From positions 1 to 44,466 of the forward strand of contig JAUXAU010000016.1 in assembly GCA_030619765.1 (NCBI GenBank): a stretch of DNA of 44,466 bases, given 5' to 3'. Source of the stretch: Thermoplasmatota archaeon. Lineage in GTDB: Archaea; Thermoplasmatota; E2; DHVEG-1. Every line of letters starts with the position of its first letter. Positions within the stretch are counted from its first letter, which is position 1. The position numbers and the translations under genes were made by a program. A model generated the notes under the pieces. The model was given only the letters and a program-made list of their open reading frames with translations, was not told where the DNA came from and did no database searches. This document shows, piece after piece, positions 17,678 to 36,763 of the stretch.

Positions 17678-20600
17678 TTAATCTACTGGTATGGGTGATG
17701 TCCACTCTGGACTATATAGGATAAGGTTTGGATCGCCGTATATGCACTGTACAGTTGTAATTGGGTAAAGGGATGATGAGCCATACATTGATGTTGGGTC
17801 ACCGGTTGTGAAATCTCTGAAGTGTAACCAGACGGTTTTCGCAAATGCTGGACCTACTGGTGTTCCATATACCATTGCATCCTCAAAGAACCAATCATCC
17901 TGCAAATCTGCCTGTGGGCAAAGTCCAGATCCTGCATTTCCATAATTTAAGACTGCTCCGTGATCAAGGAAGACCAATGGTCCGAATGCATCCTGAGTAG
18001 AACATGACATGTAGAAGACTGCGTTGCTTCGTAGGTTTTCATAATTTCCATCTACATGGTCGTAATGTATAATGTCATATAGCATTGGCGGCTCAGGATT
18101 ATACCACACCCGTCCATTTTTACGCGGCATCTTCCAACTATCATAAGAATATCCACGCCATGAATCCCACCAAATCTGAGAAGGATAGTTACCTTGGGGG
18201 GGGCCCTCAATATATTGTGCTGATTGACCGCTTCCACCCGTTCCATGTCCAGAGTAGTAAAAGACACTAGCACCATCATTCATCCGTTCCAGATGAGCAT
18301 CCCAAAGAGAATGTCCATCAAACGTTCTACCGTGAGTGCTAAACACCTTTTTCAGTACTCGACTTGAATAAGCAATATGAGAAACACCATCATTTGTCGT
18401 CCATGATCCACCATCAGGATAATTCATCAACATGGTAGTAGTAACATCTCTATTTTCATTTGCAAATATCAACGCTGGATACAAGATATTCCTTACAATA
18501 ATTGCTGAGATATAAGCAGGTGTTAACCCAGGGATATGACCTGCGTACGAGTTGTTCCCCATCATAACGGCATGTGCCGGGAGATAAATGTCATCTCGTG
18601 GTGCAACAAAACAGTATCCATCTTGTCCAGAAAGATCAAGTCCATAACCAGCAATCCAATCATGAATGCTATCGTGAAGTTCTTCGTTCCAGTATCTCTT
18701 TGCATCCAAGCCGATAGGTGGATGTTCATCCTCCCACCCCATAAAAAACTTAAACAACTGGATAGCGAGCGATAGCTGACTCATCTCCTCTATTGGCTCG
18801 TCATGAACAGGTAAATGACCAGGAGCACGAGATCCGTGATAATAATCACCTTTCCAGAGTCTCCAGGTCTCTATTCTATCTGCTAACCCTGCTGGATTAC
18901 CTGGAGCATCACCTATTCGAAGAACTGGCGATCCATGGTACGCTGCGAGCATGGCTGCTGGTGCGAAGTAGCCATCTCCTGATTTAATTGAGGTAATGGT
19001 AATATAGTTTTCAGAAGAAGGATAGGCCTTAATGTAGTCAATTATTTCCTGCATTGTTGTTAGATCTGCTTCAAGAGTTGGAAGACCACTCACACCGCTA
19101 CCAATTCCGCCCCTTTCGACAAATATGACTTTAGTGACACCAAGCGCAGTAAATGCACTCTGTGTCTCAGATGGTATGCTGTCTTCAGTTACGTACAATA
19201 AAGGTGCATGTTCTTGTGAAGCGATAACCGCAGCGTTTGCAGCAGATACAGCTGCATCAGCCCTCTTTGGATTGATCTTTCTTAACTCGGCTGTAATAGT
19301 GTATTTTGTTGAACCTTCATCCTCATATCGTGGCACAACAATGGCAGTCCATTTTCCCTGTTCAGGATGAAGGACTTCAGCAGAACAATCAAGATGATCC
19401 TCTGGCTCCCAAGCTCTCCACGGATTAACAGGTGGATTATGATATCCATACCACTCATGAATTGGAAGAACTGGGCCAGTCCATTGAGGAATATCAGGAG
19501 CACGAATATGTCCCTGTGGATCGACAAGAAATACCTGCAGATCAGATTCAGTATCAGTTGATACAGTAACCTTCAAAGCTGAATCTGCATCAGCAGCGCC
19601 TATATTTATTTTATATCTATGACCGGCTAATTTTGTAATGCGCATCGTGTCCCAGCTAGTTGATGTTAATTGTGAGCTGGCAGACCATATGCCCCATTGG
19701 GTAAGGGGATAATATAGGTCAAAGGAATCACCCGCTCCATCGTAGGGGACAGGCCACCAATCGCCACCTTGATCCATAAATTGTGGAAAAACTTGGGTAA
19801 TTTGAGCTGCATTAGAATCACCGCCACTGGCTGTTATGTCAAAAACATCGACTTTAAGTGCACCCCACTTTGGACCTATGAGCATTGGATAGCCAAAAGC
19901 TCCAGCTAATTTAGGATCATCACTATATATCTCTGTTACGTCTGCGGTACGTTTCAGTGTTTTTGTCTTTTGAAATACCTGTTTTACCTCATCCTCAAAG
20001 TCACTTCCATCAACTGCCACAACCGCAAGATCTGATGAAACCCAGTTATTTGTTGCAATTTCAGCTGCTGCCTCAATAGGGTCAGCAGGAACAGTGTACT
20101 CAGTAGCAGAATCACCATGTGAAGTCAAATAATCATTCCAGTCTTCCAGTAAATAATCGGTAGTATCATCAACAACTCCACGGTAATCTTCGGTATCAAA
20201 ATAATTGGTTGATGTATCATCCCCATCATACACAATAGGTGCTAGATATCGATCACTGCCTTCTAAATAGTTACACGCTGGTATAGATGCAATATATCCA
20301 TACTCATCATTGTTGCTATCTGGATCGTTGTTAATAATGAAAGTTTTAGTCATTGGCGTAATCTGAGGTTGAGGTATTGGACCTGGTGGAGCAGGAGCAC
20401 TCCCATCTATGGCAAATTCAAGATTATATGCACCTGAACCATAATTATAATACTTCCACTCAGTTGGCTCCGGTGCATCAACCCATCCTGGAAAGATCTC
20501 TATTTTCGCTCTCCATTCTCCTGATACATCGGCAGGATAGAGAAGTTCATCATCATAATAATACTTTTCATAATGTACTAACTCTTCGCTTGGATTGTAC

Positions 20601-21412
20601 AACAAAATATCAAAATCAGATAGATCAGTAGTGTCATACATTTCTAGATTAAAATGAATGCCATCTCCCGGATCTACCACAAATTTGTACCAATCATATG
20701 GGTCGTCCATGTCAAGATACCCGCTGTAGGTATCTGGAGTAATGAGAACAGCATCAGCAAAGGTATTACCCGCATCATCACCAGTGTTAGCATCGTTTTG
20801 GTCTGACAGGTCAACATCAAACGAATACTGACCACTACCCCCAGCAGCATAAGTGATCGCCATATAATAAAAGCCGGTATACTCAGCGGTGAAGAATACA
20901 GATTCCGCCACACCATTACCAACGTTTGAAGATGAAACTTTCATAGTTTCTGTCTCATCCCAAAGAGCAAGATCAAAATCAGCAGTTCCAGGTAGAGTCA
21001 TAGTAATATCAATATCTTGACCGATACAAACCGAAAAATCGAACCAATCTTCATCACTAGAATCGAGTTCACCGGTTACTCCTCTTCCTGGTGTATTATC
21101 AACAAGTTCACCAGGATAAATAGCAGTTGAACGAGTAAGCTTATCACCGGCATCCTTTCTCGTTCCTACATCATCGTTGTTACTTCTATCAAGTGGTGCA
21201 GGTTCTGGATCTAATATGTATTTTCTATCAAGTATAAAAGGCCCAGGATCTACCACCTTATCATATGGTTTATTGTTAATAGATCTATATGTTTCTACAA
21301 GAGATTTTTCTTCTATATCGTTTTCTACAGAGCTTGCTGGAACTAAAAACATTGCTCCCAAGAGTAGCACAGTTAACACAACAGCTTCTATTCTAACTTT
21401 TTTATGATTCAT
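17678..21412 (-). CDS. Giant secreted clan-CD (gingipain-like, C25-type) cysteine peptidase with PPC domains
   Basis: A 1244-residue exported protein. Residues 1-28 form a signal sequence. Two pre-peptidase C-terminal (PPC) beta domains follow at about 90-210 and 215-350; the first has DSSDEDWFDFSV and FDLALWDE, the second DMDDPYDWYKFVVDPGD. Middle regions contain two repeated surface-array-like units (NNWVSSDLAVVAVDGSDFED; AAVIASQEHAPLLYVTEDSI). The C-terminal catalytic-like part has H1056 in FYYSGHGTGG and C1137 in FYMSCSTQDAFG, the His/Cys dyad of caspase-fold peptidases, plus YAGHIPGLTPAYISAIIVRN, resembling the gingipain GRIP segment. The active pair looks intact. The gene is single, with GGGGG about 11 bases before the ATG. 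It probably degrades or processes extracellular proteins; cleavage specificity is unknown. Confidence 0.82.
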   Translation of the reverse strand: MNHKKVRIEAVVLTVLLLGAMFLVPASSVENDIEEKSLVETYRSINNKPYDKVVDPGPFILDRKYILDPEPAPLDRSNNDDVGTRKDAGDKLTRSTAIYPGELVDNTPGRGVTGELDSSDEDWFDFSVCIGQDIDITMTLPGTADFDLALWDETETMKVSSSNVGNGVAESVFFTAEYTGFYYMAITYAAGGSGQYSFDVDLSDQNDANTGDDAGNTFADAVLITPDTYSGYLDMDDPYDWYKFVVDPGDGIHFNLEMYDTTDLSDFDILLYNPSEELVHYEKYYYDDELLYPADVSGEWRAKIEIFPGWVDAPEPTEWKYYNYGSGAYNLEFAIDGSAPAPPGPIPQPQITPMTKTFIINNDPDSNNDEYGYIASIPACNYLEGSDRYLAPIVYDGDDTSTNYFDTEDYRGVVDDTTDYLLEDWNDYLTSHGDSATEYTVPADPIEAAAEIATNNWVSSDLAVVAVDGSDFEDEVKQVFQKTKTLKRTADVTEIYSDDPKLAGAFGYPMLIGPKWGALKVDVFDITASGGDSNAAQITQVFPQFMDQGGDWWPVPYDGAGDSFDLYYPLTQWGIWSASSQLTSTSWDTMRITKLAGHRYKINIGAADADSALKVTVSTDTESDLQVFLVDPQGHIRAPDIPQWTGPVLPIHEWYGYHNPPVNPWRAWEPEDHLDCSAEVLHPEQGKWTAIVVPRYEDEGSTKYTITAELRKINPKRADAAVSAANAAVIASQEHAPLLYVTEDSIPSETQSAFTALGVTKVIFVERGGIGSGVSGLPTLEADLTTMQEIIDYIKAYPSSENYITITSIKSGDGYFAPAAMLAAYHGSPVLRIGDAPGNPAGLADRIETWRLWKGDYYHGSRAPGHLPVHDEPIEEMSQLSLAIQLFKFFMGWEDEHPPIGLDAKRYWNEELHDSIHDWIAGYGLDLSGQDGYCFVAPRDDIYLPAHAVMMGNNSYAGHIPGLTPAYISAIIVRNILYPALIFANENRDVTTTMLMNYPDGGSWTTNDGVSHIAYSSRVLKKVFSTHGRTFDGHSLWDAHLERMNDGASVFYYSGHGTGGSGQSAQYIEGPPQGNYPSQIWWDSWRGYSYDSWKMPRKNGRVWYNPEPPMLYDIIHYDHVDGNYENLRSNAVFYMSCSTQDAFGPLVFLDHGAVLNYGNAGSGLCPQADLQDDWFFEDAMVYGTPVGPAFAKTVWLHFRDFTTGDPTSMYGSSSLYPITTVQCIYGDPNLILYSPEWTSPIPVD

Positions 21413-22612: not shown

Positions 22613-23485
22613 ATGGACGCTGAATCTAGCGAAGTGATGAGAAAGGAAAAAGACGATTTTCAAGAAAAAGCAAATGAATTCAAGAGAAAAAGAGATGATT
22701 TGCACGAAAAATCGAGGAGTATGGCTAAGGAAAGAGATGACATAAATGCCAAAGTAAGGCAAATGAGAAACCAAATAAGTGAACACAAAAAAAGAAGAGA
22801 TGAATATAACGAACGGGTGAAACATGCAAAAGAACAGAGAAATGAAATTATCAAAAATCGCTTCGATTTAAAGAAAAAAGTTAAGGATCTAGAATGGGAG
22901 AGATCATCTGCTTCAGGTGTAAATCTAAATAGCCTTAAACAAAATCTAAGGAAATTAGAAACTGAACAGATGACACAGCCCATGTCTTCTAAGAAAGAAA
23001 GAAAATTGATTGAAACAATAAAAGATCTACATATGAAAATAAAAGAAGAGGAGGAGCGATTAAATAAAGACCCGAAACTAAAAAAAGCTATTGAAGAAGA
23101 AAAAATGTCAAAACAAAAAGCAGAAAAACAGCATGATATTGTAGAGAAAATGGCTAAAAAGGCTCAAGAAGAACATCAAAGTATGATCGAATTATTTGAC
23201 CAACTTGATAATCTCGTCAAAAAAACAACTGAAATACAAGAAAACATTGTATTGACTAAGATAGAGGCTGATACGGTTCATAGAGAATTTATTGATTATG
23301 TAAATAGAATACATGAATTAGAAAAAAGGATTTCTGGTTTTGAAAAGACGAAGGATAAAAAGAAAAAAATGGCAGATGTTTCTGCGGTTCAAAAAGAAGC
23401 AAATGAGATATATGAAAGATTCAAAAGAGGAGAAAAACTTAGTACTGAGGATATAATGATTCTTCAGAGGGCTGGATTGCTATAA
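22613..23485 (+). CDS. Archaeal coiled-coil protein (COG1340-like), copy 2
   Basis: 290 residues, nearly all charged coiled coil, cytoplasmic. It is paralogous to the 13792 protein: both have an N-terminal helix with repeated RDxxNxKxRxxR patterns (KERDDINAKVRQMRNQISEH), the central hinge QPMSSKKERKLIETI, and a second long helix ending in a short Leu-rich tail (STEDIMILQRAGLL). A TATA-like TTTTAAAT at 22584-22591 and AAGAGG before the ATG support the start. The MBF1 gene follows 22 nt later, so it may be the first gene of the MBF1-TsaC-MetAP operon. Function is unknown. Confidence 0.77.
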   Translation: MDAESSEVMRKEKDDFQEKANEFKRKRDDLHEKSRSMAKERDDINAKVRQMRNQISEHKKRRDEYNERVKHAKEQRNEIIKNRFDLKKKVKDLEWERSSASGVNLNSLKQNLRKLETEQMTQPMSSKKERKLIETIKDLHMKIKEEEERLNKDPKLKKAIEEEKMSKQKAEKQHDIVEKMAKKAQEEHQSMIELFDQLDNLVKKTTEIQENIVLTKIEADTVHREFIDYVNRIHELEKRISGFEKTKDKKKKMADVSAVQKEANEIYERFKRGEKLSTEDIMILQRAGLL

Positions 23486-24578: not shown

Positions 24579-25481
24579 ATGGATGATACTATCTATGATA
24601 AATATAAGCAAGCTGGAAAGATTGCAGCTGCAGCTAGGGACTATGGTGCGGGTTTAATAAAACCAGGAGTCAGTTTTTTAGAGGTCGCAAATCTTGTGGA
24701 ATCAATGATACTAAAAGAAAAGGCGGGTCTTGCATTCCCAGTCAATATTTCAACAGACGAGGGTGCTGCTCATTATAGCCCAAGACATGATGATACCTTG
24801 GTTTTTAAAAAGGGAAATGTTGTAAAATTAGATGTTGGCACACATATTGATGGCTATATTGCCGATACTGCAATTACCGTTGAGGTTGAAACAAATAACT
24901 ATAGCAACATGATCAAGGCATCAAGTGATGCATTAGATAATGCAATAGGTTTAGTGAAAGCAGGTGTTGATCTTTCTGAAATTGGCAAAATTGTAGAAGA
25001 AACTATTAAATCCTATGGTTATAAACCCATAAGCAATCTATCAGGACATAGTCTGGAACAGTACGAACTGCATTCTGGTACATCGATTCCCAATGTTTCA
25101 AATACACATAACAAGACAAGACCAAGAGAGGGAGATGTTTTAGCGATTGAGCCATTTGCAACTAATGGACAGGGTCGTGTTGTATCGGGAAAAGGAAGTA
25201 ACATCTACTTATGTGACAAATCTTTTAGATCGAAACTCATTAGAGATAATAAATCAAAAAATTTATTTAACAAGTTGATGGTTAAATTTAAAACACTTCC
25301 ATTTGCGCAACGGTGGTGTGAAGATTTACTTCCAGATGGTGGTGATCGGGCATTAAAAAAACTTTCTTTTTTAGGGCTCATAAAACACTATCCTCAATTA
25401 ATTGAAGCAAAAGGTGGTACTGTCACACAGAAGGAACACACTGTTATTGTAAAAGAAGATGGATGTGAAATAACAACATGA
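24579..25481 (+). CDS. map: Methionine aminopeptidase, type II (archaeal)
   Basis: Removes the initiator Met from new proteins using a two-metal site. All five metal ligands are seen in 300 residues: D85 and D96 (LDVGTHIDGYIADTA), H157 (LSGHSLEQYELH), E191 (AIEPFAT) and E286 (TQKEHTVIV), with H65 in AAHYSPRHDD for substrate binding. The insert at about 208-268 inside the pita-bread fold identifies the type II enzyme. The ATG follows the TsaC stop by one base, and its own stop overlaps the next start (ATGA). Confidence 0.96.
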   Translation: MDDTIYDKYKQAGKIAAAARDYGAGLIKPGVSFLEVANLVESMILKEKAGLAFPVNISTDEGAAHYSPRHDDTLVFKKGNVVKLDVGTHIDGYIADTAITVEVETNNYSNMIKASSDALDNAIGLVKAGVDLSEIGKIVEETIKSYGYKPISNLSGHSLEQYELHSGTSIPNVSNTHNKTRPREGDVLAIEPFATNGQGRVVSGKGSNIYLCDKSFRSKLIRDNKSKNLFNKLMVKFKTLPFAQRWCEDLLPDGGDRALKKLSFLGLIKHYPQLIEAKGGTVTQKEHTVIVKEDGCEITT

Positions 25482-26341
25482 ATAACAAAAAAAGTGATGG
25501 TAAGCAGGATATAAAAGTAATTCAGCTTGAAGAGTTGAGTTGGAAACAGATTGAAGAATTAGATAAAGAGAAAACGATTTTCTTCATTCCTATAAGTCCA
25601 TTGGAAGAACATGGTCCACATTTGCCTGTTGGAACCGACTACTTGACATCAAGAGATACTGCAAGAGAAGCGATAAAAACACTAATTAAAAAAAAGCCAG
25701 GGTTTACCTATGTTTTATTTCCCGCTATACCTCTTGGTTACAGCAAAATGGCATCATGCTTTCCTGGTACTGTGTCAACCCATGTAAAAGCAGTAAAGAT
25801 TATTGTACACGATGTTTGTTCATCTCTTGCTCAATTTGGATTTAAATATTTTGTTATTTGTACATTTCATATGGATCTAGGGCATTTGAAAGGAATATAT
25901 GCTGGTATGGACAAGGCTATGAGAACGCACAACATCAAGATTTCTGAACCCTTGGGACCTTATTTTTATAATAAGGACGTAGAGAAGCGTGAGCCGAAAG
26001 TAGGATTTGATACAAAAAAAGAGGTGCATGCAGGCTTCAGAGAGACCTCTCTTATGAAATATCAGTATCCTTATCTTGTCGATGAATCATACAAAAAACT
26101 GCAGAGTATCTACAGAGATTTATATTCGCCACGATGCCTTGGGAAAACATTTAAGGATATTGGGATAGAAGAGGGATACGTAGGTAGTCCTGCTCGTGCA
26201 GATAGCAATTATGGAAGATGGTATTTTCAGGAGACAGTAAATACTTATGTAGAAGGAGCTATTGATTTGATAGAAGGAAAAGAATTACCAAAGCTCCCTA
26301 AACGTGCAATAATGATTATGAAATCGTTGTTTTGGTTATAG
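25478..26341 (+). CDS. Creatininase-family amidohydrolase with altered motifs
   Basis: 287 residues matching the creatininase family: PLEEHGPHLPVGTDYL carries presumed metal ligands E43, H45 and D54, and PAIPLGYSKMASCFPGTVS follows. Two blocks depart from the usual pattern. The NGHGGN block is TFHMDLGHL (H131, D133), and HAGExETS is HAGFRETS (184-191), with Phe where a Glu is expected. It may therefore be a divergent enzyme with a changed metal site. Family members include creatininase and the archaeal formamide hydrolase ArfB of flavin and deazaflavin synthesis; I cannot choose between these. It overlaps MetAP by four bases, so it is translationally coupled to it, and it converges on the 26347 gene. 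Confidence 0.8.
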   Translation: MNNKKSDGKQDIKVIQLEELSWKQIEELDKEKTIFFIPISPLEEHGPHLPVGTDYLTSRDTAREAIKTLIKKKPGFTYVLFPAIPLGYSKMASCFPGTVSTHVKAVKIIVHDVCSSLAQFGFKYFVICTFHMDLGHLKGIYAGMDKAMRTHNIKISEPLGPYFYNKDVEKREPKVGFDTKKEVHAGFRETSLMKYQYPYLVDESYKKLQSIYRDLYSPRCLGKTFKDIGIEEGYVGSPARADSNYGRWYFQETVNTYVEGAIDLIEGKELPKLPKRAIMIMKSLFWL

Positions 26342-26346
26342 TTAAT

Positions 26347-27432
26347 TTATGTATCTCGATATTCTAGTATTCTATGTTCCCCACTTCCATAATACGTTAA
26401 TTTTGATCCAAGCAAGAAGTTTAATATGCTGCCAAATCTAATGAGTCGGCAAACCTGTTTAACTGTAAAACCTCTAGCAAATAATTTAAAAGCGAGTACT
26501 GAGGTTAGACTATTAGTCCAAAATATTGTATTTCTAGTCCAACCCATGTATGCGCTTGCTCCTGAATCGAGAAACGCATTTGCCATGGAATCATCAAATG
26601 TTGCATGACAGGTAGCCATATATGCCATTGAATCTGGTAAATCCCCGGGCTCATAGTAGTATTCTATTAAAGCTGGAGTAAAGGCGATAAAGCTCTTATC
26701 TCCCACCATACCTTCTACAATCATCTGGTTTTCATACTCAAATTGATAAATTTCTTCAGTCTCATTTGTCCAATACTCGCCAGTAGCAATAACCACCGCA
26801 TCAGATTCGTTATCACCATCTATATCCCAGTAGCCGGCATGTGTGTTCATGTAAATTATTTCTGCCTGTAGATTGTATTTGATGTACGGCAAGTCCACAT
26901 CTTCGTTTGCCAAGTAAACAATGTTAAATCCTTTATCGATTAATATATTGATTATCTTTTTACAGTGCCGATTGCCATAAAGGTATTCTGATGGATTTAG
27001 TATCAAGGCGGTCTGTCCAGAAGTGTATCCTGAAAAAACATCGATAGGATCATGGAATGTTTTTTCGTTTTCTGTGTCACATTTATTCATTAATTTAAAA
27101 ATATCCATAAGCAGTGTGTATGATCCATCAATGAATTTTATTGTAATAGTTGTTTCAATAAGGCTTGCGAACTCTATCATAGGATGAGAATTATACCATT
27201 TTTCTAATTCTGTAAGTAATGATGTTCTAGGAAATAGAGTCACCTCATTTATTTCCAAATTGTTTTCTTTGCACAATATTTGAAGCCCTTGATCAATTAT
27301 CCCATCATGATTTATTTCTACATTTGAAAATTGCTCAAAAGAATTTTTTAATGGCTGGGCGTGAGATAGAGCTCCGCCTGCAATTAGAATAAAAAATAGT
27401 ATGGCAACATATTTTTTCTTTCTAAAATGCAT
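26347..27432 (-). CDS. Secreted caspase-fold (clan CD) peptidase-like protein
   Basis: 361 residues with a signal peptide (1-25, YVAILFFILIAGGALSHAQ) and no anchor. The C-terminal half has a Rossmann-like series: SGQTALILNPSEYLYGN, NIVYLANEDVD, EIIYMNTHAGYW with H198, then DSMAYMATCHATFDD with C275, then GASAYMGWTRNT. This is the strand-His/strand-Cys layout of C25/C11/caspase-like peptidases, also present in the 1244-residue protein at 17678. The match is by fold logic rather than overall similarity, so activity is inferred. AGGGGCC lies before the ATG and a TATA box at 27467-27475. It is the last gene of a six-gene minus-strand block that includes three small secreted paralogues just upstream. 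Confidence 0.65.
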   Translation of the reverse strand: MHFRKKKYVAILFFILIAGGALSHAQPLKNSFEQFSNVEINHDGIIDQGLQILCKENNLEINEVTLFPRTSLLTELEKWYNSHPMIEFASLIETTITIKFIDGSYTLLMDIFKLMNKCDTENEKTFHDPIDVFSGYTSGQTALILNPSEYLYGNRHCKKIINILIDKGFNIVYLANEDVDLPYIKYNLQAEIIYMNTHAGYWDIDGDNESDAVVIATGEYWTNETEEIYQFEYENQMIVEGMVGDKSFIAFTPALIEYYYEPGDLPDSMAYMATCHATFDDSMANAFLDSGASAYMGWTRNTIFWTNSLTSVLAFKLFARGFTVKQVCRLIRFGSILNFLLGSKLTYYGSGEHRILEYRDT

Positions 27433-27466
27433 TCTTGGCCCCTAAATTAAACATTGTTTACTATAA

Positions 27467-27475
27467 TATATAAAT
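27467..27475 (-). promoter_or_regulatory. TATA box for the 26347-27432 gene
   Basis: Minus-strand ATTTATATA; the AGGGG ribosome binding site begins about 32-33 nt downstream. Confidence 0.6.
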
Positions 27476-27518
27476 ATATCGTATAAAAGATAAAAAGTAA
27501 GGAGAGGGGGTTGAGATC

Positions 27519-28193
27519 CTAGATATAATCTGGTGGTGTTAGTCCCTGAATAAAGTTATCTATAAGTTGCTGCACTAAATTTTCAAAGCAGTTATTTATG
27601 TTAAAACAGGTTAGGATTGTGATCGTTGCAATTATCAAGCCTATCACAGCAAATATGGGGACCAGAATTAAAGCTACGATAAAACATCCTAGAGCACTGG
27701 AAGTAGAAAGTCCTAACGGTAAAGGATCATCCCCAAATGGTGACAGCAAAACAGCCTCATCGACCTTTTCTCTTAAAAGAGAAGGATCATTCATGGCTTG
27801 ATTCATTTGACTCTTGAACTCATTTATGGTCATGCCGTTTTCTTTTAATAAAGTAGCAATCTCTGGCATCTTAGCAATTCTATTTACCACTGAACGTAGT
27901 ATCTGCGGTCGAGCATCAATTATTTTTAATGCCCTATCAACGTAGCTTTGTAGAGATGATTTTCTAAGGAATAATAGGTTTAATGTCTTACCTTTTCCAA
28001 GATAGTTGGCACTTATCTTTTTTTCTTCCTCTTTCTCTAAAGAGCGTTGTGTACGTACCGCAAAAAGAGGCGAAGCAATACTTCTTTTTTCATCATTTGA
28101 TTTTATAGCGTTAGTACCAACAACAGAGCTCAATGATGCTAAAACAATTAGTACAGCAGCTAGGATACTTACAACTAATGCTTTTTTATTCAT
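27519..28193 (-). CDS. Small secreted/membrane protein with SPLF motif, tandem paralogue 1
   Basis: About 224 residues from the ATG at 28193, which has GGGG seven bases upstream; an ATG 12 bases earlier would put that site inside the gene. The N-terminal signal sequence is nearly identical to that of the 28359 protein. Next comes a conserved stretch, KRSIASPLFAVRTQRSLEKE, then ISANYLGKGK, a helical middle (LLKENGMTINEFKSQM) and a C-terminal membrane helix (about 165-195) followed by LTCFNINNC and an amphipathic end with IQGLTP. This family is not recognised. The three copies lie side by side on one strand, each with its own TATA box and GGGG site. Function is unknown. Confidence 0.75.
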   Translation of the reverse strand: MNKKALVVSILAAVLIVLASLSSVVGTNAIKSNDEKRSIASPLFAVRTQRSLEKEEEKKISANYLGKGKTLNLLFLRKSSLQSYVDRALKIIDARPQILRSVVNRIAKMPEIATLLKENGMTINEFKSQMNQAMNDPSLLREKVDEAVLLSPFGDDPLPLGLSTSSALGCFIVALILVPIFAVIGLIIATITILTCFNINNCFENLVQQLIDNFIQGLTPPDYI

Positions 28194-28226
28194 ATTTTTC
28201 CCCAACTATTAAATATGTTACGATAG

Positions 28227-28235
28227 TATATAAAT
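28227..28235 (-). promoter_or_regulatory. TATA box for the 27519-28193 gene
   Basis: Minus-strand ATTTATATA, 32 nt before the GGGG site at 28203-28200. The predicted transcript starts almost at the ribosome binding site. Confidence 0.65.
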
Positions 28236-28250
28236 ATGTCGAAAGTTAAA

Positions 28251-28325
28251 TAAAAAAACTAAAAAAACTAGGAGAAACCGGCAAGAATTGTTTATGATGT
28301 TTTTGTTTCTTGTAGGTGTTTCTCC
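28251..28325 (-). terminator. Hairpin plus T-tract after the 28359 gene
   Basis: On the minus strand GGAGAAAC (28325-28318) and GTTTCTCC (28278-28271) form a perfect 8-bp stem, extended after an internal loop by CAAGAA/TTCTTG. TAGTTTTTTTAGTTTTTTT follows directly (28270-28251). It begins 34 bases after the stop codon, as expected of a transcription terminator. Confidence 0.65.
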
Positions 28326-28358
28326 GAAGAATCTATCATTAATCAGATTTAAGATTCC

Positions 28359-29027
28359 TTAGCCTTCGGTTAATCCTTGTATAAGTTGTTCCCAGAATCC
28401 TTCCGCGATCTTATTAGCACAATCGTTAATATTTAAACATGTAAAGATTCTTAGTGTAAAGAAGAGGACGAGCAAAGTTAGGATAATAGCTACAGGGGCA
28501 AGGACTATTGCTGTAATAAGGCACTCAATAAAAACGGTTTCGAGTCCTAGAGGTTGAGGTATATTATTGTCGATAGGTACCTTTATTTGAATGTTTTCAA
28601 TTTCTTCTGTTAATGCTAATGGATTATTCTTAATAATTCTTATATAATTTTTAATGTCTTGTTTGCTAACATCATGTTTATTTAACATTCTAGCAAAATA
28701 AGGCGTTTTATCTAGTCTTTCCAGTAGCTTATCGATAAGAACAGGGTTTGTATCAAATATTTTAATTGCCTTGTCAATCCAGACTTGTGCCATTGATTTT
28801 TTTGGAAGCAAAATGTTAAGTTGTTTTCCCTTTCCAAGATAGTTGGCGCTTATCTTTTTTGCTTCCTCTTTATCTAAAGAGCGTTGTGTACGTACCGCGA
28901 AAAGAGGCGAAGCAATACTTCTTTCTGCATCAGATTTTACAATGTTCGTACCAATAACAGAGCTTAAGGACGCTAAAACAATTAGTACAGCAGCTGAAAT
29001 ACTTATAACTAATGCTTTTTTATTCAT
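28359..29027 (-). CDS. Small secreted/membrane protein with SPLF motif, tandem paralogue 2
   Basis: 222 residues, ATG at 29027 with GGGGAAAGAGT in front. The first 70 residues are almost the same as in paralogue 1 (MNKKALVISISAAVLIVLAS, ERSIASPLFAVRTQRSLDKE, ISANYLGKGK), while the rest has diverged strongly. The middle is predicted helical (MLNKHDVSKQDIKNYI). The C-terminal part has a hydrophobic span (LITAIVLAPVAIILTLLVLF) followed by FTCLNINDC and LIQGLTEG. Conserved landmarks across copies are a PLG(L/F) turn, a Cys before the membrane span, a Cys-x5-Cys after it and the terminal QGLT. A terminator-like hairpin follows. No family is recognised. Confidence 0.75.
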   Translation of the reverse strand: MNKKALVISISAAVLIVLASLSSVIGTNIVKSDAERSIASPLFAVRTQRSLDKEEAKKISANYLGKGKQLNILLPKKSMAQVWIDKAIKIFDTNPVLIDKLLERLDKTPYFARMLNKHDVSKQDIKNYIRIIKNNPLALTEEIENIQIKVPIDNNIPQPLGLETVFIECLITAIVLAPVAIILTLLVLFFTLRIFTCLNINDCANKIAEGFWEQLIQGLTEG

Positions 29028-29061
29028 ACTCTTTCCCCAATTAGTATATATGTTGCTAAAG

Positions 29062-29070
29062 TATATAAAT
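29062..29070 (-). promoter_or_regulatory. TATA box for the 28359-29027 gene
   Basis: Minus-strand ATTTATATA, 32 nt before the GGGG site, the same spacing as its neighbour at 28227-28235. Confidence 0.65.
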
Positions 29071-29188
29071 ATATCTAGAAAATAAATAAAAAATAGGAAG
29101 AGAGGAGTGAATCACTAAGATTTATTTCTGTTTCTTTGGCCTATCTTGTTGAGTTGAGATTATACTGGTTTAGATGTAATTTACAGTT

Positions 29189-29887
29189 TCAAGTTGGCGT
29201 TAACCCTTGAAAGCCTTCAGATATTGAATCGAATACCATTTGGAACACCCATTCTAGGCAGCCGGGGATCAGAAATGTCCCGGGAATTATTACCGCAAGT
29301 ATCCCGCCTAAAAATCCACCTATCATCATTATTATCGGAAGGACCACCAAGAAAAATGTAAGCGCGCAACCGATTTGTCCGCTGAAACCTAAAGGCTTTG
29401 GAGGTTCAATCTGTGGGAGCTTGATGTGTTGTTCTCCATACATTTGAACTGCTTCATCGATTTTCTGTTGTAAAATCGATGAATCACTTTTTATCAACGC
29501 TATTTCTTTATTTAGGTAATCTTTGCTAACACCGTGTTTTTTCAATAGAGTAACAAGTTCAGGTATCTCATAGAGCTTGTTCAGTACTTTATTGAGAAGT
29601 TCAGGATTTGTATCAAGTAATTTCAATGCCTTGTCAATCCAGCTATGTAATGATGTCTTCGGTGTGGAAAACACATTAAGAAATTTCCCTTTTCCAAGAT
29701 AATTGGTACTTATCCTCATTGTATTTTTTTTCATAATGCTGTTTACTCTTTTTGTAAAAAGAGGCGAAGCAACACTTCTTTTTTCATCATTTGATTTTAC
29801 TATGTTAGTACCAACAACAGCAGATATCGGCAACAGAATCATCAGAACTGCAGCAAATATACTTATTACCAATATTTTTTTTCTCAT
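29189..29887 (-). CDS. Small secreted/membrane protein with SPLF motif, tandem paralogue 3 (most divergent)
   Basis: 232 residues, ATG at 29887 with GGGGGAAAAA in front and a TATA-like GTTTAAATA at 29926-29918. It shares the signal sequence (MRKKILVISIFAAVLMILL), KRSVASPLFTKR and ISTNYLGKGK with the other two copies, and the helical middle with LLKKHGVSKDYLNKEI. The C-terminal hydrophobic region is longer and richer in Gly (IIMMIGGFLGGILAVIIPGT), and only one Cys follows it (IPGCLEW); the protein ends in QGLTPT. It is next to the GATase-like membrane gene 29990, separated by 102 bases. Function is unknown. Confidence 0.75.
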   Translation of the reverse strand: MRKKILVISIFAAVLMILLPISAVVGTNIVKSNDEKRSVASPLFTKRVNSIMKKNTMRISTNYLGKGKFLNVFSTPKTSLHSWIDKALKLLDTNPELLNKVLNKLYEIPELVTLLKKHGVSKDYLNKEIALIKSDSSILQQKIDEAVQMYGEQHIKLPQIEPPKPLGFSGQIGCALTFFLVVLPIIMMIGGFLGGILAVIIPGTFLIPGCLEWVFQMVFDSISEGFQGLTPT

Positions 29888-29989
29888 TTTTTCCCCCGAT
29901 TATTCATATATGCCCTAGTATTTAAACACATCGTCTGAAAAATTTGTTTTTTAGCTGTTTACATGGTTTTTAAAATAAATTTAAGGTTA

Positions 29990-32521
29990 TCATGTATCGT
30001 TTAGTAAAACTTCTTCAAAGATGTAAAACTCGGTGTTATATATTTGTAATTGACCTTCGTCAGGCTCAATAAACGGCCCGCCCATAATAAAATCACTGAA
30101 TGAATATGAATCTACTAAAACCACAATTTTACCGGTTTTCCCAGTTGTCTCATTATAAAATTCGGCAACACTTGCATGTGTTTCGTTATTTTTAATAAAG
30201 AGAATTTTTTCTCCCCCAGTTATTGTTAGATAAGGAGAAGTAATATTGCCAACTGTTGAATTATTGGTTGTATCATTAAAACCACGGTATAAGCTACGAT
30301 CGAATGTGTTGTAATTTATCCATATTCCAAAATTGCCTATCAACTCATTAGCAGTTGAACGACTATTAGTTATGCTGTCCATTACGAGCACCTTTCCTCC
30401 ATTCTCTACAAAATCAGTTATAGTGTCTATGTCTTCTGTTTCAAAAGATTTTGTTGGATTTATGATCACGATAATGTCACCTATTTTTATTGCATCATCC
30501 AATGTTTTTTCTAATGTAGGAATACAACCTACACGTTGTGTCCAAACAAAGAATGTTCCATAGTTGTCTTTTTCATTATAAAGTCCAATACTTGGCTGTA
30601 ATGAAACATTAAAATCTGAATATTCCTGATCAAAACATATTTGTATGTAATCTGAATGGGCACTCGGTAACGGATAATTTACTTCGTTCATATACGAAAA
30701 TACTGGAGTTGCTGTTGAAAACGATAGCAATCCTGCAAGTAAAAACAAAAAGAAAATCTTGATCTTTTTCTCATTTCTCAGTAAATATAATGATACGATT
30801 AGAAAGATTATAGCAAGTCCAATTAAAACCGAATTTAAATATGGGTATGAGTTAACTCTGTTGAGATACTCCATTGTTCCAAAGGTAAAAGATTTGTATC
30901 CATCTGAAAACATAGAGAAACTGGAAAAAACTGTGCTATCTGTAAATGCTACTACTCTTCCTTTTCCATATTTCACTGCAATAACTTGTAAAAGAAGTCC
31001 ATATTCTGATTCTGGCGAAGCGACAGATTCCTTAAAAAAGTTCTCAGTGGAATACGTGCCAGGTTCACTAATTAATCTGTTTCCGATGATAACGTTTTCT
31101 GAATTAAGAGGAGCTCTAAGTGTACATGAGGTCATGAACTCAAATTGTTCCACGTTTTGTACAATGGGATGCGGAAACATATCGTCAGGTTCATAAACTG
31201 ACATCATTCCAGTTCCCAATTCATATGTAGCATCTGTTTTAAACCGGATACCAAAGTTTTCGGAAACTTGGTTAAGAAACGTGTTCATTCCAAAAACATC
31301 GGTATGATCACCTATTAAATAGAGACCACCTCCCCTTTCAACAAATTGTACAATTGACCAGATTTCTTCGTTTGAATAACTATTTGTTGGACATTTGAGA
31401 ATCAAGATGTCATAATTTCCTAAGATTGCTGCTGTTAATGTGTTGTTGTTTTTCTCTACATGATAATAGTAGTTAAGCCATTCTGCCCATGAGTAGTAAT
31501 TATAAGTGGAAAGCATTCCGTACCATTCCTTGTCAAGTGCTTTTGTTGTATCTTCCCAATCGCTGTGATATTCATCTATTAGTACCCTTCCACCTTTTTT
31601 AGTACCTGGATCTTGAAAGGCAAAGGCGCCAACCATTGAAAATACAAAGATAAAAATCATTATCATTGCTAAAACGTGTTTTTTGTTTATTCTAAGGTTT
31701 TTAAAACAGTCATTACTAACTTTGGCATCTTTTAATGGTATTATCTTCATGAGTAGTAATGCAAATGGGAGAAAGCTTAACAGCATGTACAATGGATTCC
31801 AGAAAATATCTAGTTCTAATGTGCTTATGTATAAATGTATAAAAGCAACGTATCTAAGAATAAGATACAAGAAACTAGCTATGAAAAATATAAGGATGTT
31901 CCGAAGGATTTTTCTTTTTCCATAAAGTAAAATGAGTAGCAACAGCGCGCCAATAAGTATATTGAACCAAGTATAGAAACCCAGTTTTTCCCATGTAGTT
32001 GTAAAGGGATATGTTTGTTGAAATGTTTGGACAAAAACAATTCCATTGTTTACCGTGGTTTTTAAACCAAGGTAATTTCCAAATATTGAAACTACAGGTG
32101 AGAGAATGTCTATTCTATGACCGTGAGATACAAAGATACTGTAAAAAGGAAGTAGGGCAGTTTGAATGGTCAGTACTATTCCAGTAAGTGATATTCCGGC
32201 TATCATTGCATTTGCTTTTTCAATTTTTAATTGATTTGTGATAGCATATAGAAGGAGGCCTATTGTTAGTACAATGGGTCCAATATTGTATGGATAGTTA
32301 ATGATCAAAATAGAGATTAACAGAGGAATGAGAAGAATGAGATATTTTTTGTTGATTTGTTTGGGCCTGTTTTTCCAAAAGGCAAGGATGTTGCAGATTA
32401 TTCCTACTGCTAAAAAGAAGGTACCGATTTTCCAATCAGGGATAGTAAAGATTGGGATGAAAAACAGCCAGCTTGTGGAAATAAACAGAAGTCCTAGCCA
32501 TAGTAATCGTTTCACTTCCAT
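29990..32521 (-). CDS. Polytopic membrane protein with two extracytoplasmic GATase1/DUF4350-like domains, copy A
   Basis: 843 residues. Positions 1-300 hold about eight or nine membrane helices, with a segment (TTWEKLGFYTWFN, KRKILRNILIFF, YLILRYVAF, 174-228) that recalls the exosortase/archaeosortase core but has no catalytic Cys. A Rossmann-like domain follows at about 310-555: GGRVLIDEYHSDW, then YDILILKCPTNSYSNEE, then GGGLYLIGDHTDVFG, then GRVVAFTDSTVFSS. Two membrane helices (562-605) precede a second such domain (about 620-835) with GDIIVIINPTKSFETEDID and GGKVLVMDS. This fold occurs in DUF4350 and GldG-type proteins. Its start overlaps the end of the paralogous 32512 gene by ten bases, so the two are cotranscribed and likely form a pair. 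Function is unknown. Confidence 0.72.
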   Translation of the reverse strand: MEVKRLLWLGLLFISTSWLFFIPIFTIPDWKIGTFFLAVGIICNILAFWKNRPKQINKKYLILLIPLLISILIINYPYNIGPIVLTIGLLLYAITNQLKIEKANAMIAGISLTGIVLTIQTALLPFYSIFVSHGHRIDILSPVVSIFGNYLGLKTTVNNGIVFVQTFQQTYPFTTTWEKLGFYTWFNILIGALLLLILLYGKRKILRNILIFFIASFLYLILRYVAFIHLYISTLELDIFWNPLYMLLSFLPFALLLMKIIPLKDAKVSNDCFKNLRINKKHVLAMIMIFIFVFSMVGAFAFQDPGTKKGGRVLIDEYHSDWEDTTKALDKEWYGMLSTYNYYSWAEWLNYYYHVEKNNNTLTAAILGNYDILILKCPTNSYSNEEIWSIVQFVERGGGLYLIGDHTDVFGMNTFLNQVSENFGIRFKTDATYELGTGMMSVYEPDDMFPHPIVQNVEQFEFMTSCTLRAPLNSENVIIGNRLISEPGTYSTENFFKESVASPESEYGLLLQVIAVKYGKGRVVAFTDSTVFSSFSMFSDGYKSFTFGTMEYLNRVNSYPYLNSVLIGLAIIFLIVSLYLLRNEKKIKIFFLFLLAGLLSFSTATPVFSYMNEVNYPLPSAHSDYIQICFDQEYSDFNVSLQPSIGLYNEKDNYGTFFVWTQRVGCIPTLEKTLDDAIKIGDIIVIINPTKSFETEDIDTITDFVENGGKVLVMDSITNSRSTANELIGNFGIWINYNTFDRSLYRGFNDTTNNSTVGNITSPYLTITGGEKILFIKNNETHASVAEFYNETTGKTGKIVVLVDSYSFSDFIMGGPFIEPDEGQLQIYNTEFYIFEEVLLNDT

Positions 32522-35133
32522 CCCTCCATTGCCTTAAAATCATCTAGGATGTGCTTCAGGAATATGATGTTTCCTGGCCAGTAATCGTATATCGACTCTA
32601 TGTTTTTATCCAGTAGGTATTGACTATCGCTGATTAATAATAGTCCGCCGTTTCCATGTTCTACGAATACCATAAGATAGTAGTCGATATCCCATGTAAA
32701 ATTGTAGTAGGATCTGCTATATTCTTCATTAAAAACTATGGGCCAGCTATCTACGAATTTAGGTTCGTTTTCGTATTCTTCAGGACTTTCTTCAACATAG
32801 GGAACAGGTCCAAGTGGTACACCTTCCATGTCTAATTCGAATTCATCGAGCAATGGTAACGAAGCATATTTGTCCTCGTATCCAACAGCTAGAACTATTA
32901 TTCCGCCGTTGGACATGTACTGTTTTAGAAATTCTACTTCATCTCCAGTAAATGATCTTGTTGGGGCGTTGAAAAACAGTATTTTGCTTCCTTCGATTTT
33001 TTCTTTTGAAAAGTCTCTAAGAATGATTGGAAGATAACCGTTTCTATTGAGATTTAACATAAGTCCATTAACTGAATCATCCGTGAATAGCTCTAGACTA
33101 AATCGTTCTCCGTGAGACGAATCTATGTACACGACATCTCCACTTATTTTCACATCCTCGATAAGTATGGGATTAACAATCGTAGAAATGAGTAATGCAA
33201 TGCAAAGTGCTACAGGGAAAAAGGCAAATGAAATGCGAGTGTTTTTTAAGATAATGTATACTAAGAATGCTGCTATGAGAAGAAGTATTGATATTCCTAT
33301 TTGCAGTAATTCTCCTGTCTCTGTTCTTTCGTTGTTCAGCCATGTAAAAATGCTTTGTATAAATGGATAAGAGTATGCCATTGCCGAGTTTTGAAACGTG
33401 GAAGTATCGCCAAATACCAACACCTTGCCTTGCCCATAATACGATCCTGCAACAAGAACTACATCTCCAAGTTGTTCACCTGGATTATACTCATAATCGC
33501 CAAGATAAGCCATCTCCTCATTCAAACGGTCTCCCTCATCGGAGAGAGCATACCTTCCCACTATCATGGGAAATGAAGAAGAGGTAATGTCAAGAGATGC
33601 ACCAACGCTTATCTGGATTTCGTCTAAACTATCTATTTTTAATGTTATTGGATGATGAAGTAGTTGATAGCAGGTGATCCATTTAAACTTTGAATCCAAG
33701 GGAAGTGACGAATCAAACCTGAATCGTATGTTTGCAGGTTCTAGTAAATCATTTAAGGGTTCCTGTATGCCACCAACGTTTGTATGATCCCCTAGTACCA
33801 GTAAAGAACCTCCGTTTTCTACATATTCCCAGATTATATCTTTTTCATTCTGGGAAAAGGATTTGTTGATGTTTGCTACTACAAAGACGTTGATATCTTT
33901 CAATATATCTCTGGTAATTTCTGGTGATTCGATAATAGATACGTAGTCTGTTACATTCACGTATCTTGTGATATTTTCATGTACCGGTTGAGTGGTGTTA
34001 AGAAACGTTGTTATGTTTTCAACAATGATTTCGTTTTCATATCCGGATGCAGTCAAATAAATGGGCAAGAGGCCAAACATGCCTGATGCTTCTCTTCCGT
34101 ATTTTCCATATTCGGGTATATCCCATGTACCTAGCATGTTTTGGCCGTAGAACAAGATTTTTTGATCATCGGTGTCCGTGGTGTCAGCACCTATGAAGGT
34201 TGTAAGCGTTACACTAGAAATAAACAAAAATAACAAAGCCCAGATAGCTCCGTTTTTAGGCAATTTTTTTATGTCTTTGAATTTCAGAATCCTAGTTGTT
34301 GATTCTTTGTATTCATATTTTGATAGGTATAGAAAAGTAGGTATTAAACATAATAAAAAGAGAATGTAATGTAGATTTATTACATCATTTTTTGATTCAA
34401 ATTCAATAAAACCTAGGATGATGAGATAGACTGACCAAGCAATAAGAAGTCCCACTATGGGTAAAGTAAGTCTAATTATTTTTGATTGTTTTTTATTATA
34501 TGATATGAAAAAGCTAACTATTGATAATATTAAAAAAATAACTACTATCCACAGTCCACTTGCAGAAGGACCAAGTGACAACGGTTTGTTTATGACAGTA
34601 CCTATTAAATTTGAAAACATGAGTGAGGACCGTTGAATTGTATGCCATAGTATTGGGATTGTCTGTAAAAGCATGAAAAATAATACGTAGACAAAAGACG
34701 CTACTGATAGTAGGTGTAGTTCCTTTCTTTTTTTATCAAGTCCTTGAAGGGTGAGATCTAATCCTGATGCCAATATCGGGATGCTAGTTATCCACAGTAT
34801 TTGCATTTTTGTAAATAGTAGTAGAACAAAGGAAAATAAAATGAGAAGTAATCCCGCTAAGATTTTATCAAGATGTCCTTTATTCTTTCTTCTAATTATT
34901 AGATATAATTTTTTTAGTGGTAGATTTAGTAGTAGTATACTTAAAAGTATATAGAATGTGAATGCGAGAGTAAATGATTGCTCAAATATGCCCAGGTTAA
35001 GTGAGAGTAAGTTTAATACTAACAGAATCAGAAATATGTTGATGCCACCAATTATAGCAGATGGCAAGAGATTTCTAAGGGTATCAAGATAATGTTTTCC
35101 CCTCATATAAGGACATATCATAACTATAATCAT
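32512..35133 (-). CDS. Polytopic membrane protein with two extracytoplasmic GATase1/DUF4350-like domains, copy B
   Basis: 873 residues with the same architecture as copy A. The N-terminal membrane domain (1-315) contains LSLGPSASGLWIVVIF (186-200), placed where exosortases have their Cys-containing motif, with Ser instead of Cys. The first Rossmann-like domain (about 323-600) has INVFVVANINKSFSQNE, GGSLLVLGDHTNVGG and GKVLVFGDTSTFQNSAMA; two membrane helices (608-655) follow, then a second domain (664-870) with SKILFFNAPTRSFTGDEVE and GGIIVLAVG. The motif GDHT(D/N)V is shared with copy A. No SD is visible; ATGs at 35133, 35121 and 35106 are all possible. Divergent from the thioredoxin-like gene. 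Confidence 0.7.
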   Translation of the reverse strand: MIIVMICPYMRGKHYLDTLRNLLPSAIIGGINIFLILLVLNLLSLNLGIFEQSFTLAFTFYILLSILLLNLPLKKLYLIIRRKNKGHLDKILAGLLLILFSFVLLLFTKMQILWITSIPILASGLDLTLQGLDKKRKELHLLSVASFVYVLFFMLLQTIPILWHTIQRSSLMFSNLIGTVINKPLSLGPSASGLWIVVIFLILSIVSFFISYNKKQSKIIRLTLPIVGLLIAWSVYLIILGFIEFESKNDVINLHYILFLLCLIPTFLYLSKYEYKESTTRILKFKDIKKLPKNGAIWALLFLFISSVTLTTFIGADTTDTDDQKILFYGQNMLGTWDIPEYGKYGREASGMFGLLPIYLTASGYENEIIVENITTFLNTTQPVHENITRYVNVTDYVSIIESPEITRDILKDINVFVVANINKSFSQNEKDIIWEYVENGGSLLVLGDHTNVGGIQEPLNDLLEPANIRFRFDSSLPLDSKFKWITCYQLLHHPITLKIDSLDEIQISVGASLDITSSSFPMIVGRYALSDEGDRLNEEMAYLGDYEYNPGEQLGDVVLVAGSYYGQGKVLVFGDTSTFQNSAMAYSYPFIQSIFTWLNNERTETGELLQIGISILLLIAAFLVYIILKNTRISFAFFPVALCIALLISTIVNPILIEDVKISGDVVYIDSSHGERFSLELFTDDSVNGLMLNLNRNGYLPIILRDFSKEKIEGSKILFFNAPTRSFTGDEVEFLKQYMSNGGIIVLAVGYEDKYASLPLLDEFELDMEGVPLGPVPYVEESPEEYENEPKFVDSWPIVFNEEYSRSYYNFTWDIDYYLMVFVEHGNGGLLLISDSQYLLDKNIESIYDYWPGNIIFLKHILDDFKAMEGWK

Positions 35134-35200
35134 GTTATAATATTATCGTCATTTTATGTATTTCTATACTTTTTTTCCTTCTTTTCTCTACAATATAAAC

Positions 35201-35242
35201 ATTTATATATGCTATCATATATTATTAGGTGGGGAATATAAT
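35201..35242 (+). promoter_or_regulatory. TATA box and ribosome binding site that set a TTG start at 35243
   Basis: ATTTATATA at 35201-35209, then GGTGGGG at 35228-35234 eight bases before TTG. The ATG at 35156 lies upstream of the promoter and cannot be the start. Confidence 0.65.
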
Positions 35243-36763
35243 TTGGAAGATCATATAGTTAGAAAAGTCTTGGTTTTTGGGATATCATTATTATTTGTAG
35301 GGGTAAGTGTTGTTGTACCAAATCTCAATGGGAATATTACAAGATCTAGTAGTATTCAAACTCTAAAAGTATCAACGGAATCATTGGGTGAAATGATTGC
35401 TTATCAGAATTATTCTCATACAGTTTTCGTAGGAGTGGCGACATCCCAAAATTGTCCTCCATGTCACACTTGGAATCAAGATATACATGATGCATATGTT
35501 TCAGGATTATATGATTTTGAGTACGTGGAAATGATTGAGTTTGCCCATAATGGATCTGTCCTTAATTATAAAGCACATGATTGGGCAAGCGGTTATAATG
35601 TAAATCAGTGGCCAACTTCTATTTTTGATAGGGATTATGAAAGAATAGCTGGTAATAATACTGGAGCGCTTCCAGGTGCCCTTGATGCTTGCGGGAATAG
35701 AACAGTGGAAGATATAATCGCTAATATGACGTTGTTATGGCTGGGAAACGCAACAATTGAGGTTAATATTACCATTCAAAATAATGAAGAAGCGCAATAT
35801 AATGGCCACATTCTGGCATTTATTACAGAGATTGTCTCTCGATATGATACAGATGGTGGTGATCCATATCATTTTGGATTTTTGGATTTCGCTTTCGATA
35901 AGAATATTTCTATAGATGCAGGAGGCGAATACACAGATAGCACGGTTTGGAACGGCAATGATCATGGAGATGCCCATGGCGATAATTTTGGAGATATCAC
36001 TGAGGGTAATATTCAAGTGACAATGATTGTGTTTAAGAATGATGAGTATCTGGACGAAACGGTATCGGCACGTATGGCCGCTAATAATCCACCTTATGTT
36101 CCCGGTGAGCCATTTCCACCCAATGGGGCTACTGATGTAGATCTAGGTATTGATTTGAGTTGGATTGGTGGAGACCCTGATGGGGATCCGGTTACATATG
36201 ATGTGTATTTTAATTCTAGTAGTCCTCCTTCACAGGTAGCATGGAATAAAACTGGGGCAATGTATGATCCAGGTATTCTAGATTATGAGACAACATACTA
36301 CTGGCGAATTGTTGCCTGGGATGATTTTGGTGCTTCAACAGGAGGGGCCACCTGGAGTTTCACCACAACAAATCATACAGAATTAAAAGTATCAATAATA
36401 AAGCCAATGAACAAATCTTTCTACTTACGAAATATTCGCCTATTTCCCTTGCCCCGTAATATTATAGTATATGGTCCTATTGATATTACTGTGAACACTA
36501 CCTCATCTATAGGGATAGAAAGTGTAGATTTGTATATAAATGAAAAACTTGTAGAAACATTTACTGAAGAATCATTCAGCTATAGGTGGGCGCCCATACT
36601 ATGTTCCAGATACACTATAAGAGTCATTGCCTTTGACGAAAATGGTGGTCAAGCAGAGGATCAAATCATCGTATTCAAATGGAGAGTACATCCTCTTTTA
36701 ATACTTGCTGGCTCTCTGATATTACTCAAATTCAGACCCCGGATACTACGACACCTACTGTAG
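35243..36763 (+). CDS. Secreted thioredoxin-like (CPPC) protein with Fn3-like and Ig-like domains
   Basis: 506 residues from TTG at 35243. A signal or anchor helix (VLVFGISLLFVGVSVVV) is followed by a thioredoxin-like domain of the Omp28/extracytoplasmic type: VFVGVATSQNCPPCHTWNQD with the redox pair C71-P-P-C74, then VEMIEFAHNG and NQWPTSIFDRDY, where the Pro fits the cis-Pro loop. A beta domain follows, then one Fn3-like module (LSWIGGDPDGDPVTYDVYF, TTYYWRIVAWDDFG) of the same kind as in the 1689 and 36778 proteins, and a C-terminal Ig-like domain. The end is a hydrophobic stretch with a basic tail (LLILAGSLILLKFRPRILRH). It probably handles disulfides or thiols outside the cell; this is inferred from the motif. 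Confidence 0.77.
   Translation: MEDHIVRKVLVFGISLLFVGVSVVVPNLNGNITRSSSIQTLKVSTESLGEMIAYQNYSHTVFVGVATSQNCPPCHTWNQDIHDAYVSGLYDFEYVEMIEFAHNGSVLNYKAHDWASGYNVNQWPTSIFDRDYERIAGNNTGALPGALDACGNRTVEDIIANMTLLWLGNATIEVNITIQNNEEAQYNGHILAFITEIVSRYDTDGGDPYHFGFLDFAFDKNISIDAGGEYTDSTVWNGNDHGDAHGDNFGDITEGNIQVTMIVFKNDEYLDETVSARMAANNPPYVPGEPFPPNGATDVDLGIDLSWIGGDPDGDPVTYDVYFNSSSPPSQVAWNKTGAMYDPGILDYETTYYWRIVAWDDFGASTGGATWSFTTTNHTELKVSIIKPMNKSFYLRNIRLFPLPRNIIVYGPIDITVNTTSSIGIESVDLYINEKLVETFTEESFSYRWAPILCSRYTIRVIAFDENGGQAEDQIIVFKWRVHPLLILAGSLILLKFRPRILRHLL

Follow-up and report, generated by a model that had tools for sequence, protein, structure and literature searches.

A GIFT-domain membrane protein pair co-distributes with a family of SPLF-motif exported proteins in Thermoplasmatota archaea

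Six minus-strand genes fill positions 26347-35133 of a 44,466-nucleotide stretch of DNA from a Thermoplasmatota archaeon (contig JAUXAU010000016.1 of assembly GCA_030619765.1; we call the whole analysed stretch the window). In the order MB-MA-SPLF 3-SPLF 2-SPLF 1-CASP, they encode two membrane proteins, three small exported proteins sharing an N-terminal SPLF motif and an exported protein with a His/Cys pair. Across genomes, MB–MA occurs together with the N-terminal SPLF motif, and CASP with SPLF proteins of one C-terminal type. A functional partnership of MB–MA with the SPLF family is well supported, and we lean towards the fuller proposal, mechanism included, that MB–MA, the SPLF proteins and CASP make up a dedicated many-to-one envelope system. 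The original prediction, made from the sequence alone, had described this block between a convergent and a divergent neighbour, with two overlapping paralogous membrane proteins, three tandem SPLF paralogues and a small secreted protein carrying His198 and Cys275. We confirm what it observed, and its interpretation as a processing, export or antagonism system is partly supported.

Co-distribution of the membrane pair, SPLF proteins and CASP

We surveyed 390 genomes from the phylum. Almost all are metagenome assemblies that are incomplete, and borderline presence calls hinge on profile thresholds. The membrane pair, scored by MA, is present in 22 genomes. SPLF matches that cover the motif occur in 21, all of which are pair carriers, and the other 368 genomes have neither (Fisher p=7.5e-34; 6e-11 when limited to the order, with 43 genomes in the first survey). 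Weak SPLF-profile matches in G006, G008, G014, G025, G028, G035, G152 and G232 were not counted; those listed cover the signal-peptide part only (profile positions to ~37).

The same pattern is seen between close relatives. Both the pair and SPLF proteins are found in seven genomes of genus g12 and neither in two (G152, G232); in genus g11 they are both found in G031 and both missing from G014; in genus g27, G041 has both and G040 and G042 neither. SPLF genes are scattered across many contigs, which makes a lost contig an unlikely cause of these absences. In G006 (91% complete), where no MB, MA or SPLF gene was found, the flanking genes lie ~0.5 kb apart with a CASP remnant of ~83 residues between them, and G232 has a broken CASP only. 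The within-genus contrasts and the decayed G006 locus argue for coupled loss.

These data bear on the simplest alternative, that the genes have long been neighbours within a single lineage and that their co-distribution reflects shared ancestry and no functional link. The restriction of all carriers to one order and the physical linkage of part of the SPLF family to the pair would suit such a history, whereas the joint disappearance of the pair and of the mostly dispersed SPLF genes in G152, G232, G014 and G006 would not. Nor would G026, which retains both the pair and the SPLF–CASP half, on two different contigs and not near a contig end. We therefore give this explanation very little weight.

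The gene order MB-MA-SPLF(1-3)-CASP is kept both within the genus and in several other genera of the order (loci L061-L063, L069, L070, L077, L120, L121, L127, L154, L155, L158 and L159), and its retention in many genera excludes chance. Past CASP, on the opposite strand, the loci of relatives carry a creatininase gene, an M24 peptidase gene and more conserved genes. The block holds three or two SPLF copies within the genus and one in other genera; G155 has no SPLF gene between MA and CASP, its SPLF genes being on other contigs, and the SPLF gene of the G015 block is broken by a stop. Named carriers include Thermoplasmatales archaeon bin45 (CP070724.1), bin14 (CP070798.1) and SM1-50. The prediction that the genes form a functional unit thus held, as they co-occur and stay adjacent, and the link survived the comparison for independent occurrence.

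CASP follows a different part of the SPLF proteins. A hairpin C-terminus, detected with profile A7, is present in 16 of the 22 pair-positive genomes, and 15 of these 16 also have CASP (p=9e-5 for CASP against the hairpin C-terminus among the 22). The sixteenth, G003, in which CASP was undetected, is 63% complete and its block is cut by contig ends. Neither the hairpin C-terminus nor CASP is found in G013, G017, G021, G037, G038 and G041.

The MB–MA membrane pair

MB and MA overlap by 10 nt and are paralogous (24% identity over ~350 residues, E=4.5e-19), and the genome has no further close copy of either. Each combines a polytopic membrane part with two GIFT-type domains; in MA, ~8 N-terminal membrane helices are followed by a GIFT domain, further helices and a second GIFT-type domain. 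Both proteins pass the curated Pfam thresholds of IFT52_GIFT, ABC_transp_aux and DUF4350 (for DUF4350, with 45.5 and 31 bits where 30.4 are required), and both fall far under the cut-off of 389.85 for the full-length GldG equivalog TIGR03521 (32.7 and 24 bits). An AlphaFold2 model of MA, built from an alignment of 12 sequences only (mean predicted local distance difference test score of 68), was submitted to Foldseek; the IFT52 N-domain (5fmr) was the top match (E=2.5e-5), followed by S1P and, lower down, OST48, with sugar-active enzymes also among the matches.

A GDHT motif is invariant in both the MA family (12 orthologues aligned) and the MB family. The Cys nucleophile of class I glutamine amidotransferases is present in neither protein, and GDHT would take its place at the elbow, a placement that follows from the fold family. 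Judged by these motifs and profile matches, MA and MB are GIFT-type domain proteins without the amidotransferase nucleophile. The earlier label ‘GATase-like’ therefore holds for the fold and is incorrect when taken to mean an enzyme.

The Foldseek matches to OST48 and to sugar-active enzymes, together with the sugar binding proposed for GIFT domains (PMC7226087), are the basis for another explanation, in which MB–MA would be a glycan-binding or glycosylation-associated scaffold, like OST48 in oligosaccharyltransferase, with SPLF proteins among its acceptors or partners. The invariant SPLFxxR is no glycosylation sequon and the block contains no glycosyltransferase, which makes this role improbable.

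SPLF proteins and CASP

The SPLF family extends well beyond the block. This genome has ~20 SPLF genes, ~18 of them outside the block, one relative has ~40, and most are dispersed on other contigs. The local triplication noted in the original prediction is real, with three copies here; it is limited to the genus, and the family is not restricted to the locus. The hallmark of the family is SPL[F/Y]x[I/V]R[T/S]xR[A/S], which comes after a signal peptide and 23-42 residues from the protein start, usually with a YxGKG-like segment ~20 residues beyond the motif. Among 108 SPLF proteins of 20 genomes, a set collected by pattern and hence biased toward the motif, the fourth position is F in 95% and Y in 4%, and Arg at +6 is found in 98%. 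Motif retention is also high among the 35 G002 genes found by profile alone: SPL[FY] is present in 33 and TPLF in one (34 of 35 in all), and a stop lies inside the motif of the remaining gene. In-frame stops near the motif occur in the SPLF copies L183 (G002:C1:227959-228156) and L187 (G002:C1:643129-643332), pointing to birth and decay within the family or to assembly errors. NCBIfam searches gave scattered chance matches only, and the ‘SPLF’ of the papers found is SplF of staphylococci, an unrelated protease.

C-termini are more varied. A membrane segment at the C-terminus is also found in most SPLF proteins of family f1; the majority of those from G013, G017 and G041 lack it, are ~100-145 residues long and contain Cys. 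The hairpin C-terminus of the block proteins is conserved across genera. The antagonism system raised in the original prediction gained nothing from these data. It would cast SPLF proteins as pro-toxins or bacteriocin-like peptides matured and exported by MB–MA and CASP, with which the conserved N-terminus, the variable Cys-containing C-terminus, the high copy number and the short Cys-rich members of G013, G017 and G041 would agree. However, no recurrent immunity gene was noticed beside SPLF genes, PADLOC gave no match, and the hairpin C-terminus is not diversifying. No phage or plasmid homologue was found for the two proteins tried (one SPLF protein and MA), and a mobile-element origin of the block was rejected on the same searches. 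We consider antagonism very improbable.

Many dispersed SPLF genes have a conspicuous neighbour: 33 of 83 lie directly downstream of another exported-protein gene, and many of these overlap it or are separated from it by a gap of <10 nt. At the pair loci L010-L021 and L170-L196 (for example L010:4752-6326 and L013:4180-6290), the upstream partners are larger exported proteins with an N-terminus resembling MNNLIKKGVVVAVILLFVSVSVIPSTG, varied middle parts and a few recurring C-terminal types.

This arrangement underlies our main rival explanation, in which SPLF proteins would be adaptor subunits, docking on MB–MA through the N-terminal motif and tethering a neighbour-encoded secreted partner, CASP being one such, through the variable C-terminus. 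In addition to the 33 adjacent genes, the match between CASP and the hairpin would fit a partner-specific C-terminus, and the single SPLF gene of G026 stands beside CASP. On the other hand, cognate pairing of SPLF C-termini with those of the upstream partners was rejected, as the two do not covary (Mantel r ~0, p=0.55), and many SPLF genes have no such exported-protein neighbour. We regard the adaptor role as unlikely, although less so than the other alternatives.

His198 and Cys275 of CASP are invariant in 15 homologues, and a GExWT segment is near-invariant. The residues at the His read HAG in most members and HGG in the divergent L080. In a model predicted from an alignment of 15 sequences (predicted template modelling score of 0.73), His198 and Cys275 each directly follow a strand. 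The original prediction had called CASP caspase-like, a classification that the searches do not support: Pfam, NCBIfam and PDB profile searches gave no family match, Foldseek matches of the model were weak and mostly flavodoxin-like with no peptidase among the best 50, and hhalign against 11 C25 proteins of the same lineage returned a probability of 0.2%. C25 (gingipain-type) peptidase matches themselves are numerous, with up to 46 per genome in G000 and its relatives and 38 in the genome of the window. We infer that CASP works like a thiol peptidase or transferase, and we do not classify it as a relative of caspases.

A role of CASP as general SPLF processor was rejected, given that G013, G017, G021, G037 and G041 have SPLF proteins and the pair and no detected CASP. 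CASP, which follows one C-terminal type where MB–MA follows the N-terminal motif, is therefore an accessory component. In G044, from another family of the class, we found four CASP-like loci (L080-L083), one of them full length, and detected no MB–MA or SPLF; distant CASP relatives therefore occur outside the system.

Block layout and proposed role in the envelope

The features of the block are collected in the table. After the MB/MA overlap, the gaps in block order are 102, 161, 165 and 86 nt, and no Rfam match to a structured RNA was found in the block. The start of SPLF protein 1 was taken as the MNKK ATG and not the TTG four codons upstream.

Features of the six-gene block, in window coordinates
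Feature	Coordinates	Strand	Basis or remark
MB, polytopic membrane protein of 873 aa carrying two GIFT-type domains	32512..35133	-	Pfam; always directly before MA where both are assembled
MA, 843-aa MB paralogue	29990..32521	-	Pfam; AlphaFold2 model; Foldseek; in 22/390 genomes
Invariant GDHT of MA, putatively at the nucleophile-elbow place of glutamine amidotransferases	31301..31312	-	Alignment of 12 orthologues; placement from fold family
SPLF protein 3, 232 aa, with signal peptide and SPLF motif, then a helical part and a membrane hairpin at the C-terminus	29189..29887	-	
SPLF motif, protein 3	29756..29767	-	
SPLF protein 2, 222 aa	28359..29027	-	
SPLF motif, protein 2	28899..28910	-	
SPLF protein 1, 224 aa	27519..28193	-	
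SPLF motif, protein 1	28062..28073	-	
C-terminal hairpin (GC...hydrophobic...TC.NINNC...GL.P) of SPLF protein 1, CASP-tracking type	27531..27737	-	Profile A7 and distribution
CASP, exported 361-aa protein, no family match, alpha/beta domain	26347..27432	-	Adjoins SPLF in many genera
CASP invariant His198 codon	26839..26841	-	Invariant in 15 homologues; directly after model strand 192-197
CASP invariant Cys275 codon	26608..26610	-	Invariant in 15 homologues; directly after model strand 269-274

The convergent neighbour is a creatininase gene (25478-26341) and the divergent neighbour a secreted-protein gene (35156-36763), whose product matches Omp28 weakly and contains a bacterial Ig domain. A gene of the latter type also adjoins MB at loci L061 and L064 of this genus; in other genera none was seen next to MB. 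Elsewhere in the window, 17678-21412 encodes a 1244-residue protein without a Pfam or NCBIfam match; proteins of similar length (1241-1243 residues) lie near the block in L122 and L123. Two DUF7121 coiled-coil genes are found at 13792-14688 and 22613-23485.

The system shares several traits with rhombosortase/GlyGly-CTERM, a pair recognised through co-distribution and adjacency (PMC3237569), and with sortases and exosortases: one membrane machinery per genome, many exported proteins sharing mainly one short region, a near-perfect co-distribution (SPLF in 21/22 pair carriers versus 0/368 other genomes) and some carriers encoded beside the machinery. A layout of this type, a dedicated membrane pair with many small exported partners, is what the original prediction had envisaged. 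In contrast to those systems, the SPLF motif is N-terminal and follows the signal peptide, in place of a C-terminal motif-helix-basic tail, and the machinery is a GIFT-domain pair and no known protease or transpeptidase. A second parallel is provided by archaeal DUF4350 (arCOG01314) proteins, for which membership of a secretion complex was predicted (PMC5898192) and which likewise place a DUF4350/GldG-like extracytoplasmic domain in a membrane protein beside secreted-protein genes. MA and MB differ from them in being polytopic, with two such domains each, and in forming a tandem pair, and a Pfam scan of 20 window proteins turned up no vWA or AAA+ (COG0714) gene. They share the GIFT domain family, by Pfam and fold, with GldG, IFT52 and OST48, and are without the ABC transporter partner, cilium or oligosaccharyltransferase context of those proteins. 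For CASP, the closest layout is that of clan CD (clostripain, gingipain, caspase), in which His and Cys each directly follow a strand (PMC4850288). CASP is similarly exported, with its invariant His and Cys each predicted to follow a strand of an alpha/beta domain. It differs in that HAG mostly stands in place of HG, profile and fold searches gave no match, and a GE.W segment is invariant.

Because of the rhombosortase/GlyGly-CTERM parallel and the secretion-complex prediction for DUF4350 proteins, we propose that MB–MA acts on the SPLF tag. MB and MA would assemble into a heteromeric membrane complex. Through its GIFT-type domains this complex would recognise SPL[F/Y]x[I/V]R[T/S]xR[A/S] after export, and it would then process, insert or assemble the tagged proteins in the cell envelope; its action would be one of processing, sorting or assembly, with SPLF proteins as presumed substrates and MB–MA as the machine. 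CASP may use His198 and Cys275 to assist the subset with the hairpin C-terminus, possibly in the manner of a thiol peptidase or peptidyl transferase. A more specific version, which we put forward tentatively as possible, is an N-terminal sorting or processing code, read by the GIFT pair as an SPLFxxR tag on dozens of variable exported proteins, with the unrelated His/Cys protein serving one C-terminal subclass. We know of no described sorting system that pairs an N-terminal post-signal motif with GIFT-domain machinery, and our literature search found no description of an MB–MA/SPLF system.

Several observations weigh against the proposed envelope system. Eukaryotic GIFT domains are usually non-catalytic, so MB–MA may be no enzyme. 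Gln replaces the Arg after SPLF in L077 and L157, which makes a strict Arg cleavage site unlikely. G038, the sole exception to the co-distribution, has the pair and no detected SPLF protein. Finally, the carriers all belong to one order, and their relatedness, which the Fisher p values ignore, inflates those values; the within-genus contrasts therefore weigh more.

The co-distribution in these uncultured sediment archaea suggests that their cell surface carries a previously undescribed system for handling proteins, and the cleanness of the pattern makes the partnership between MB–MA and the SPLF proteins directly testable. If the proposal is true, a large set of unannotated exported proteins of uncultured Thermoplasmatota (~20-40 per genome in the genus) would gain a partner and a motif, and GIFT/DUF4350 membrane proteins, so far only predicted members of secretion complexes, would gain concrete partners.

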